DNA of 34,829 bases, taken from positions 1 through 34,829 of the forward strand of contig CACXUA010000028.1 in NCBI GenBank assembly GCA_902770725.1, read 5' to 3'. The notes beneath the pieces are model-generated. The model was not told the DNA's origin and did not search any database. It was given only the letters and a program-made list of their open reading frames with translations. Within the stretch, counting starts at the first letter, position 1. Each line of letters opens with the position of its first letter. Shown piece by piece: positions 24,707 through 26,579 of the stretch. Source of the DNA: an uncultured Bacteroidales bacterium. GTDB lineage: Bacteria > Bacteroidota > Bacteroidia > Bacteroidales > Bacteroidaceae. The position numbers were made by a program, and so were the translations under genes.

Positions 24707-24973
24707 TCATTTATGTCTGTTCGCACGTTGGCGACGGATGTCAGCTTTCTTTTTTGCTGCTCCGCTACCGTGTGCTCCTGTGATGTATTGTTTCTTCTTG
24801 GCTTTGGTCTTGACCTTAGCCTCTTCTTTCTTTGGCCCGCCTTTCGCGCCGCCTTTGAAAGTAATGCCGCTCAGGATAACAGCATCTATGTCATCTCCTC
24901 CATGACCCCCTCTAACTCCCCCGTGAGGGGGAGAACTAAGGAGTGAGGAGCTATCTTGTGGTTTATTCTTCAT
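24707..24973 (-). CDS. Small lysine-rich protein, N-terminus encoded by an inverted-repeat end
   Basis: An 88-residue ORF that I do not recognise. Its ATG (24971-24973) overlaps the last codons of the DUF559 gene in another frame, and residues ~12-24 (LSSPPHGGVRGGH) are translated straight from the left 37-bp repeat at 24904-24940. From about residue 27 on, the sequence looks native: DDIDAVILSGITFKGGAKGG, then a strongly basic tail with many KKK/KTK stretches and the end RRQRANRHK. The stop is 24 bases before the DUF4831 ATG. I infer a small basic gene whose original start was displaced by the DUF559 unit and replaced by a chimeric start. It could also be non-coding. No function proposed. Confidence 0.45.
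   Translation of the reverse strand: MKNKPQDSSSLLSSPPHGGVRGGHGGDDIDAVILSGITFKGGAKGGPKKEEAKVKTKAKKKQYITGAHGSGAAKKKADIRRQRANRHK
24904..24940. repeat. Left 37-bp inverted repeat of the DUF559 unit
   Basis: Reverse complement of 25356-25392 with no mismatch over 37 bases. Contains its own hairpin: CTCCCCC (24916-24922), loop GTGA, GGGGGAG (24927-24933). A competing stem, CCCCCTC (24906-24912) with GAGGGGG (24925-24931), is also possible. Confidence 0.92.
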
Positions 24974-25340
24974 TTAGTTTCTGCTCTATAGTTTTAATTA
25001 CTTTGTCAGTTTGGGAAATAACTTCATCATTTGTAAAGCGAATTAGCTTAAAGCCAAAAGATTCAAGGCGTTCTGTGCGACCTTCATCATATTGTTGTTG
25101 TTCATATTCGGAATGATATGCGCCATCTACTTCAATGATAAGTTTTGACTCCAATGAAACGAAATCTACTATATAGTCTGCAATAATGTATTGCCTGAAA
25201 AACTTTGTTTTTAATTGTCTATCCCTTATGTTTTCCCATAGAATTGCTTCTGCATCAGTAGGATTCTTCCTATTCTCACGAGCCCAATCCTTCAAAAAGG
25301 AGTAACTGTCACTTGCTGCCCATTTCAATTCGTCATTCAT
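24963..25340 (-). CDS. DUF559 family protein, Vsr-like endonuclease fold
   Basis: DUF559 proteins belong to the restriction-endonuclease-like superfamily near Vsr very-short-patch-repair nucleases; their function is largely untested. The 125-residue protein (start ATG 25340) shows the family signature in order: RENRKNPTDAEAILWENIRDRQL (~20-42), FFRQYIIADYIVDFVSLESKL (~47-67), then IIEVDGAYHSEYEQQQYDEGRTERLESFGFKLIRFTNDEV. The D-x(n)-E-V-D arrangement (DFVSLESKLIIEVDG) matches the catalytic core of the fold. An upstream GTG (25371-25373) is in frame but sits inside the right inverted repeat, so I prefer the ATG. Codons are AT-rich compared with neighbours, and the gene is flanked by perfect inverted repeats, so transfer is likely. 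Whether it acts on those repeats is speculation. Confidence 0.88.
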   Translation of the reverse strand: MNDELKWAASDSYSFLKDWARENRKNPTDAEAILWENIRDRQLKTKFFRQYIIADYIVDFVSLESKLIIEVDGAYHSEYEQQQYDEGRTERLESFGFKLIRFTNDEVISQTDKVIKTIEQKLNEE

Positions 25341-25355
25341 TGGTCTTCCTGCATT

Positions 25356-25392
25356 CTTAGTTCTCCCCCTCACGGGGGAGTTAGAGGGGGTC
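25356..25392. repeat. Right 37-bp inverted repeat of the DUF559 unit
   Basis: Exact reverse complement of 24904-24940. Reads CTTAGTTCTCCCCCTCACGG onward; its last base is part of the stop codon of the gene to the right. Confidence 0.92.
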
Positions 25393-26579
25393 TAATGATG
25401 GAACAGTCTTACACCAGTGAAGGCCATTGCGATTCCGTATTTGTCGCAAGTCATGATGACGTGGTCGTCACGAACGCTGCCACCGGCTTGAGCAATATAT
25501 TCCACACCGCTCTTGTGGGCTCGCTCCACGTTGTCGCCAAAGGGGAAGAATGCATCACTGCCAAGGCTGACTTTTGTGTTCTTGGCAATCCATTCTTTCT
25601 TCTCTTCGCGGCTGAGAGGCTCAGGCTTTTCTGTGAAGAACTTCTGCCATTCGCCCTCGGCAAGAACGTCCATGTAATCGTCGCTGATATAGACGTCGAT
25701 TGTGTTGTCTCTGTCAGCACGACGAATGCCTGGAATGAAGGGTAGAGCCATTACTTTGGGATTCTGACGGAGCCACCAAATGTCGGCTTTGCTTCCTGCC
25801 AGACGTGTGCAATGGATGCGGCTCTGCTGACCTGCACCAATACCGATTGCCTGGCCGTCTTTAACGTAGCAAACGCTGTTGCTTTGGGTGTATTTAAGTG
25901 TAATGAGTGCAATGATGAGGTCGCGACGAGCATCTTCGGGGAAGTGCTTGTTGGCTGTGGGAATGTTCTCGAAGAGAGCAGGGTCGTCCAGCTTCACCTC
26001 GTTTCTGCCTTGCTCGAAGGTGACGCCAAACACTTGCTTGCGTTCGATGGGAGCAGGAACATAATTGGGGTCAATCTTGATGATGTTGTAGGTGCCTTTA
26101 CGTTTCTCACGCAATATCTGCAGAGCTTCCTCGGTAAAGTCGGGGGCAATGACGCCGTCGCTCACTTCTCGTTTGATGATGAGAGCTGTTGCTTCGTCGC
26201 AAGTATCGCTCAGGGCAATAAAGTCACCATAGCTGCTCATGCGGTCTGCACCACGAGCACGGGCATAGGCACAGGCGATGGGGCTGAGGGGAACCTTGAT
26301 GTCGTCCACGAAATAGATGCGAGCCAAAGTGTCGCTTAGTGGCAGTCCGACTGCAGCTCCTGCGGGGGAGACGTGCTTAAAGCTGGCTGCTGCAGGGAGT
26401 CCTGTTGCTGCCTTGAGTTCCTTGACGAGTTGCCAGCTGTTCAGCGCATCGAGGAAGTTGATGTATCCTGGTCTTCCGCCCAGCACTTCGATAGGCAGTT
26501 CGCCTTCTTCCATGAAGATGCGTGAGGGCTTTTGGTTGGGGTTGCAGCCATATTTGAGCTGCAGTTCTTTCTGTGCCAT
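25392..26579 (-). CDS. Stand-alone AICAR formyltransferase (PurH C-terminal domain only)
   Basis: This enzyme transfers a formyl group from 10-formyl-tetrahydrofolate to AICAR, the penultimate step of purine synthesis. The 395-residue protein begins directly at the transformylase module (LKYGCNPNQKPSRIF, the counterpart of RYGENPHQ) and has the catalytic Lys68-His69 in SFKHVSPAGAAVG. Other family motifs: GGRPGYINFLDALNSWQLVKEL, DGVIAPDFTEEAL, IGIGAGQQSRIHCTRLAGSKAD, SDAFFPFGDNVERA, and the end AMAFTGVRLFHH. The IMP cyclohydrolase domain (about 190 N-terminal residues in bifunctional PurH) is absent, so cyclisation must be done by another protein. I recall such single-domain forms in Bacteroides. 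It starts 13 bases after the zinc-ribbon gene, likely one operon. Its stop codon abuts the DUF559 unit. Confidence 0.92.
   Translation of the reverse strand: MAQKELQLKYGCNPNQKPSRIFMEEGELPIEVLGGRPGYINFLDALNSWQLVKELKAATGLPAAASFKHVSPAGAAVGLPLSDTLARIYFVDDIKVPLSPIACAYARARGADRMSSYGDFIALSDTCDEATALIIKREVSDGVIAPDFTEEALQILREKRKGTYNIIKIDPNYVPAPIERKQVFGVTFEQGRNEVKLDDPALFENIPTANKHFPEDARRDLIIALITLKYTQSNSVCYVKDGQAIGIGAGQQSRIHCTRLAGSKADIWWLRQNPKVMALPFIPGIRRADRDNTIDVYISDDYMDVLAEGEWQKFFTEKPEPLSREEKKEWIAKNTKVSLGSDAFFPFGDNVERAHKSGVEYIAQAGGSVRDDHVIMTCDKYGIAMAFTGVRLFHH

Follow-up and report, generated by a model that had tools for sequence, protein, structure and literature searches.

A small nuclease gene between inverted hairpin arms as a probable selfish, frame-capturing unit in Bacteroidota

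A short AT-rich gene for a DUF559 protein sits between two inverted palindromes in the 34,829-nucleotide stretch of uncultured Bacteroidales DNA analysed here (the window), and the locus raises the question of whether these 489 bp, two inverted arms plus a nuclease gene, are a mobile unit or a resident gene that happens to have hairpins beside it. We judge that the segment is probably a selfish, frame-capturing unit, most likely spread by its own nuclease, although neither cutting nor movement has been measured. The observed anatomy is collected in Table 1. The arms at 24904-24940 and 25356-25392 are reverse complements at 37 of 37 bases, and a repeat search confirms this match, extends it inward to 46 nt at 91%, and finds that it ends at the outer edges, as the preliminary description of the locus had stated. 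Each arm contains a hairpin, CTCCCCC-GTGA-GGGGGAG, with a 7-bp stem and a 4-nt loop. C/T-stem hairpins of this kind (stem of 7 or more, loop of 3-8) are found in the 34.8-kb window in the two arms only, with four start positions observed versus a mean of 0.1 after triplet shuffling.

Table 1. Features of the unit and of its two host genes in the window
Feature	Position	Strand	Remarks
Upstream host gene, AICARFT/IMPCHase family	25392..26579	(-)	Stop codon and arm have base 25392 in common
5' arm (gene direction)	25356..25392	(-)	GACCCCCTCTAACTCCCCCGTGAGGGGGAGAACTAAG; first base is the final base of the upstream TAG stop
DUF559 nuclease gene	24963..25340	(-)	125 aa from ATG; GTG alternative to 25373
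Start codon (ATG) of downstream small ORF	24971..24973	(-)	Supplied by the unit, within the last codons of DUF559
3' arm	24904..24940	(-)	Exact inverted copy of the 5' arm; read in frame into the next gene, as part of SSPPHGGVRGG
Captured host gene, small conserved ORF	24707..24973	(-)	88 aa; conserved part GGDDIDAVI...RANRHK

The gene between the arms had been described as an AT-rich Vsr/restriction-fold gene unlike its neighbours, and this is correct: its GC content is 0.347 versus 0.527 and 0.493 for the neighbours, and its GC3 is 0.286 versus 0.588 and 0.561. The protein, which would be 136 aa long if started at the upstream GTG, is a member of PF04480 (DUF559; E = 7e-34, 116.4 bits against a curated cut-off of 20.6); Pfam finds nothing else in the unit apart from one sub-threshold REase model, and no extra DNA-binding domain in the 125-aa protein. 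An AlphaFold model (pLDDT 84) gives 3hrl and the catalytic domain of I-Bth0305I (3r3p) as its best Foldseek matches, followed by AbaSI-like enzymes and Vsr; the similarity to I-Bth0305I has an E-value of 0.002 by sequence and 1.7e-4 by Foldseek. We observe conservation of the putative active site, with E42, T39, D70, E81, D83, H87, D96 and R99 each present in 150-152 of 152 proteins. By predicted fold and by these acidic and histidine residues, the protein qualifies as EDxHD/Vsr-like, with the caveat that the residues that give EDxHD its name are unaligned; PMC9403480 places a DUF559 gene in the EDxHD family. The conservation argues for selection on activity; some DUF559 copies contain stops. 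The source genome, G000, is 80.6% complete and has one DUF559 match. The preliminary description saw no known transposase, which holds for Y1/RAYT enzymes, with no Y1_Tnp match in this incomplete genome; the window remains unscanned for other transposase families.

The association of arms with DUF559 genes is observed well beyond this locus. Inverted arms lie within 250 nt of 66 of 79 testable DUF559 loci, out of 80 loci from genome contigs in this first test, compared with one of 294 shifted windows, and the arms in the window are therefore not a matter of chance. Adding loci from relatives and using a wider search window gives arms in 125 of 158 testable Bacteroidota loci (70/79, 41/49 and 14/30 in the individual samples; controls 1/300, 0/180 and 0/112), which bears out the expectation that arms flank DUF559 more often than chance would allow. 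By the test used, 31 of 152 non-redundant loci have no arms; we count these against our preferred reading, and they were dropped before the classification below, as was one locus at a contig edge. The arms have a common form, (A)GACCC(A/T)CCCC followed by about 2 bases and a stem such as CCCCTCCC/GGGAGGGG. The stem sequence itself varies among units, with 33 kinds counted in 92 arms. Of 97 left arms, 82 form a stem of 7 or more, versus 30 of 1840 shuffled ones, and stems exchanged between units pair less well than a unit's own. Likeness between the two arms of one unit is 0.92, a value inflated by the selection of arms for their match, and left arms compared between units that share a host gene reach 0.63. 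At the AICARFT locus, G033 carries a DUF559 unit with a different arm type on both sides. One unit elsewhere (L058) has arms of ~130 nt; an additional ~80 nt is common to both of them, which looks like copying from one arm to its partner.

Capture of the downstream reading frame, a feature absent from the interpretation given in the preliminary description, is observed at the other edge of the unit. The unit had been placed exactly between a stop codon and a small ORF; it does adjoin the stop, but overlaps its last base and contains the start codon of the small ORF, so that the right arm is translated, as MKNKPQDSSSLLSSPPHGGVRGGHGGDDIDAV.... The earlier observation is thus confirmed as real, with a larger extent than first described. 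Relatives without the unit have an ATG just ahead of the conserved part of the small ORF, whereas in G000, G013 and G033, among the loci listed (the loci of the latter two also appear as L038 and L041), the start is inside the unit and the frame runs through the 3' arm. The same arrangement is usual elsewhere: leuC, folD, argB, gmk, coaD and uvrA take their start codon from a unit whose right arm is translated. We classified 120 non-redundant armed units and find 64 with strict N-terminal capture (frame open through the arm, no ATG within the next 75 nt), 32 with looser capture (open frame but an ATG nearby), seven internal fusions, four whose frame is closed and 13 for which the rule applied identifies no co-directional gene. 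This rule misjudges short genes, as all three small-ORF loci, which on reading are captured, were assigned to the last two classes, and its control is imperfect, with 137 of 487 other ORFs open for 75 nt or more before their first ATG. An in-frame ATG lies ahead of the arm in 79 of the 96 N-terminally capturing units. Stronger evidence comes from where the host family models start. Nine of ten hosts scanned (LeuC, FolD, ArgB, CoaD, UvrA, ArgG, PurD, ArgC and Gmk) begin at profile position 1-5, no more than ~6 residues after the arm peptide; RsmG is the exception, at profile position 6 and 21 residues later. Frame capture is well supported. Two related observations concern palindromes near captured genes: G003 has two inverted palindromes at the AICARFT locus with no nuclease and an in-frame ATG kept, and a start-captured UvrA gene (L111) has two further Pro/Gly-rich inserts that resemble translated palindromes.

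Units also reside inside genes. In 20 of 159 loci the open frame extends for at least 80 residues to either side of DUF559, and the internal hosts include RecG (three Maribacter records), LeuRS (four), MetH (two), a CCA-adding enzyme, a helicase and restriction subunits; the identity of RecG and of LeuRS was confirmed for one host each, and the others are named by reading. Alignment of the RecG host to 1gm5 runs to residue 516 and resumes at 519, with ~148 residues inserted and two skipped, and that of the LeuRS host stops at 236 and resumes at 242, with five skipped; both inserts thus fall between neighbouring residues of solved relatives. Within the PDB hits listed the two inserts match only the DUF559 structure 3hrl. 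No intein splicing domain is found by Pfam in the unit of the window, nor in the fused RecG and LeuRS among 35 of 35 and the best 60 of 73 PDB hits, respectively; for the other fusions its absence rests on reading only.

These insertions bear on the possibility that DUF559 is a resident Vsr-like repair or defence nuclease and that the hairpins are terminators or regulatory elements. PMC12907096 lends this some support: in Caulobacter cells without a cytosine methyltransferase, the DUF559 protein VsrA brings about an SOS response. We nevertheless regard it as very improbable, given that DUF559 matches are patchy, numbering 0-5 per genome in one genus, that host genes differ between loci, that the insertions within RecG and LeuRS are in frame, and that an arm-bounded exchange is found at rmlB (see below). 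Vsr and Vsr-like DUF559 proteins such as VsrA do have the nuclease fold and active-site residues in common with the protein described here; to our knowledge, proteins of the Vsr/VsrA type do not occur within an arm-bounded unit. Membership in a defence system was rejected, as PADLOC gives three weak hits, the best of them to a homing endonuclease.

Comparison of orthologous sites reveals that close relatives differ in whether they have the unit. We observe related species without it at the rmlB, leuC and AICARFT sites, in a comparison that covered 16 of 30 rmlB loci and 30 leuC loci, and absence from sister genomes, a mark of homing genes, is thereby met. G000 and G005 are sisters in the AICARFT tree; the former is empty at rmlB, and the latter has no unit at the AICARFT locus. 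At leuC, G032 and G017 are occupied and G013, G033 and G036 have short arm-like remnants, by reading. The empty rmlB site of G027 reads AGTCCGTTTACATACCAAGTATAACTATGAAACTTAACATT, and G005 and G020 read ..CCGTTCAC, unit, CAACATC. The insertion is observed to replace 21-23 host nt that contain the upstream stop and the ATG, with no target-site duplication at rmlB, the sole site examined at base level. As a separate observation, the end of the AICARFT gene in G005 (L149) has, where G000 has its unit, a single palindrome of another type, AGACCCCCTAACCCCCTTTAGGGGGAA, which resembles the arms of a unit in G024 (L222).

Between G005 and G020 the rmlB units show one mismatch in 463 nt, while their 500-nt flanks differ by 11-13% (flank bins 84-92% alike; Fisher p = 1e-18) and the first differences beyond the arms are 9 and 10 nt away from them. 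This is the clearest case of what appears, from the alignment, to be exchange of a unit between species with edges at the arms. Both genomes were probably assembled from metagenomic data (completeness of G020 is 62%, in ~240 contigs), and a chimera is conceivable. Two strain records, Prevotella denticola NCTC13067 and P. veroralis DSM 19559, are 97.3% alike in the unit versus 80-90% in the flanks. Across 12 selected pairs the unit is more alike than the flanks at p < 0.05 in eight, no difference is seen in three, and one (L064/L140) is the reverse, with the unit less alike; among all 251 pairs with the same host, the unit exceeds its downstream flank in likeness in 35 and does not in 216. Only 14 of 86 similar unit pairs (above 72% identity and 60% coverage) have different flanks, and these at 72-84% identity, which indicates that new host genes are rarely reached. 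In the nuclease tree, units with the same host gene tend to group (35 changes versus 78.4 when shuffled), yet supported clades with more than one host also occur, and the window's unit belongs to one of them. The tree is built on few columns, leaves many forks unresolved and omits seven of 159 loci (five duplicates and two short). With arm association, presence and absence among relatives, the rmlB exchange and scattered matching palindromes all on its side, the proposal of a minimal mobile unit has held up, and mobility of the unit is well supported. Phages and plasmids were rejected as its main vehicle: of 50,697 phage records (E 1e-5) only five have a relative, and of 72,556 records of plasmids (E 1e-3) only 40, all below 60% identity, and no arms are present at the four viral-contig DUF559 loci checked of the eight found.

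A homing endonuclease gene would explain mobility in another way, by cutting the unoccupied host gene at a single conserved position and having the unit copied in by gene conversion, with the arms as mere linkers or hairpins that the enzyme does not recognize. The homology to the homing endonuclease I-Bth0305I fits this model, as does, indirectly, the occupation of the rmlB junction in two species by a near-identical unit; so do the same LeuRS position, by reading and among the loci listed, in genomes from three families and the same RecG position, again by reading, in three Maribacter records. We consider it unlikely, if still to be reckoned with. The arms occur alone in unrelated genes with no nuclease, and the downstream frames form 76 clusters (a few probably not real genes) with no common target apparent. 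Identity at rmlB falls within 9-10 nt of the arms, so that any co-conversion tract would be very short, and Pfam finds no DNA-binding domain added to the 125-aa protein. Homing endonuclease genes and inteins (PMC3943268, PMC6083498) resemble the unit in having an EDxHD-related nuclease in or beside conserved genes, in being missing from sister genomes and in occupying the same site in different species. Unlike in inteins, no splicing domain is seen in the DUF559 unit, and the host protein either retains the insert or takes the unit's start codon.

Solitary copies of the arms bear further on what moves the unit. The 17-nt arm core has 11 exact copies in G000, two of them within the unit. When this core is counted with up to 1 mismatch and unit arms are included, the arm type of the window's unit has, among the matches listed, 4-57 copies in the seven genomes scored with a DUF559 of that type (G016 was typed on one side only) and 0-5 copies in 28 of 30 other genomes; the exceptions, in which no DUF559 was found, are G027 (84% complete), with 23 copies, and G006, with nine. 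The preliminary description had held that a 37-mer scattered without DUF559 would refute mobility of the unit. That outcome is half met, as solitary palindromes do exist but are commonest in genomes that have a DUF559 unit of the same arm type, with the exceptions given. Copy number is associated with a matching DUF559 when phylogeny is ignored (Mann-Whitney p = 5e-5); with phylogeny taken into account, none of ~4 independent pairs goes against the association (sign test p = 0.125-0.5), and with so few pairs it cannot reach significance.

Of the 26 own solitary palindromes in G000, nine are within a frame that stays open for 60 codons in both directions, and 11 fall in no class; the corresponding shares of random positions are 64% and 15%. 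They are depleted inside genes, yet about a third are in frame; a strict preference for reading frames was rejected on this comparison with random positions. An FBPase-like gene has 37 nt including the palindrome in G000 and G005 versus 16 nt in six of seven relatives, a net gain of 21, and G035 has a different 40 nt at this position. At one gene position (L027, L333, L339), G000 and G005 have a palindrome type different from that of G013, and G036 and G027 have none, which suggests a hot spot or replacement of one palindrome type by another. Two inverted palindromes ~215 bp apart in G000 (G000:C65:213-463) have no DUF559 match and are possibly a nuclease-less derivative.

The solitary copies could alternatively mean that the palindromes are REP- or MITE-like and are moved by another enzyme, such as a RAYT, with DUF559 as a trapped passenger. 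Palindromes do occur without DUF559, and a Y1_Tnp gene is present in G027 (23 copies, no DUF559 found) as well as in G013 and G035. Against this, Y1_Tnp is unmatched in 14 of 20 incomplete genomes, including the palindrome-rich G000, G005, G015, G020 and G031; the Y1_Tnp genes of G027 and G013 have a different flanking repeat; and matched arms at 125 of 158 loci together with kept active sites are hardly expected of a passenger. We find this explanation improbable and reject it as the main reading on the first two of these counts. The RAYT-like Y1_Tnp genes themselves (L374 in G027 and L376 in G013) are flanked by an inverted repeat of the GCCCAGGGCA..CGCCCTGGG type, which is a separate repeat system in the same genus.

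The layout had been likened to REP-associated transposase units with a nuclease in place of the Y1 transposase, a comparison that the comparative data support. In REPtrons (PMC3733652), hairpin repeats flank an enzyme gene with a tag or tail on one side, and the repeat is scattered as singles and inverted pairs, with some REPs inside genes. The scattered, inverted flanking hairpins of a REPtron are thus met here and its Y1 tyrosine transposase is not, its place being taken by a restriction-fold nuclease; the arms begin with GACCC, not with GTAG/CGTC, and, again unlike REPtrons as described there, the DUF559 unit is translated in frame and provides start codons. Rickettsia palindromic elements (RPEs) are similar in another respect, namely, that palindromes lie in frame in protein genes and are tolerated as an added peptide (reviewed in PMC10969869). 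The FBPase-like gene and nine of the 26 solitary palindromes above meet this description. We know of no enzyme gene that accompanies RPEs, whereas the palindromes described here also flank a nuclease gene. No account of DUF559 with palindromic ends was found in those parts of the openly licensed PMC literature that could be consulted.

Our preferred reading, a selfish unit spread by its own nuclease, would work as follows. The two inverted, hairpin-bearing arms would be the ends of a unit built around a gene for a nuclease of putative Vsr/EDxHD fold. With no stops in a usable frame, the arms encode Pro/Gly/Ser-rich linkers, and for this reason the unit can reside at a gene start or in frame inside a gene without splicing. 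At a gene start it replaces the host's start codon, the host gene would come to depend on the start codon or frame of the unit, and clean loss would be hard because removal would take the start codon or disturb the frame, an inference from the anatomy. The nuclease would most likely cut or nick the arm hairpins, possibly on the lagging strand, and/or the empty site, and so spread both the unit and solitary arms; repair would then copy the unit in, replacing a short host tract without target duplication. Nicking or cutting and copying by repair are inferred from the enzyme, the matched hairpin ends, the solitary ends and the tract replacement, and it is likewise by inference that we assign to DUF559 the driving of movement, the recognition of the arms and the chemistry.

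Inteins and mobile introns can invade genes because they are spliced out. The nuclease unit apparently invades genes without splicing, by means of protein-readable ends and a loaned start codon, and looks like a widespread, so far undescribed kind of mobile element. It would provide a candidate enzyme for palindromic repeats in reading frames and would account for unusual Pro/Gly-rich inserts, at N-termini or internal, among the proteins of Bacteroidota; predicted gene starts at such loci may be systematically wrong. More tentatively, and aware that this may well prove mistaken, we suggest that DUF559 proteins are the mobility enzymes of a large group of cross-phylum elements with protein-coding hairpin ends, which spread as units and as solitary ends, replace host tracts and seize the starts or frames of important genes. 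If this is true, the elements would be splicing-free counterparts of inteins, and DUF559 the missing enzyme behind several orphan families of C-rich palindromic repeats in bacteria.

Outside Bacteroidota, plasmid loci of Cyanobacteriota, Deinococcota and Alphaproteobacteria have arms in 11 of 19 cases versus 0 of 38 controls, in a test that covered 19 of the 40 plasmid records with a relative. In Pseudanabaena galeata a unit is embedded in frame in a large gene whose annotation is DUF559 protein; judged from motifs alone, the host gene reads like a DNA methyltransferase. On pSymB of Sinorhizobium meliloti, a DUF559 gene (L372) has inverted arms scoring 102, and its palindromes are reminiscent of what we take to be known rhizobial intergenic repeats.
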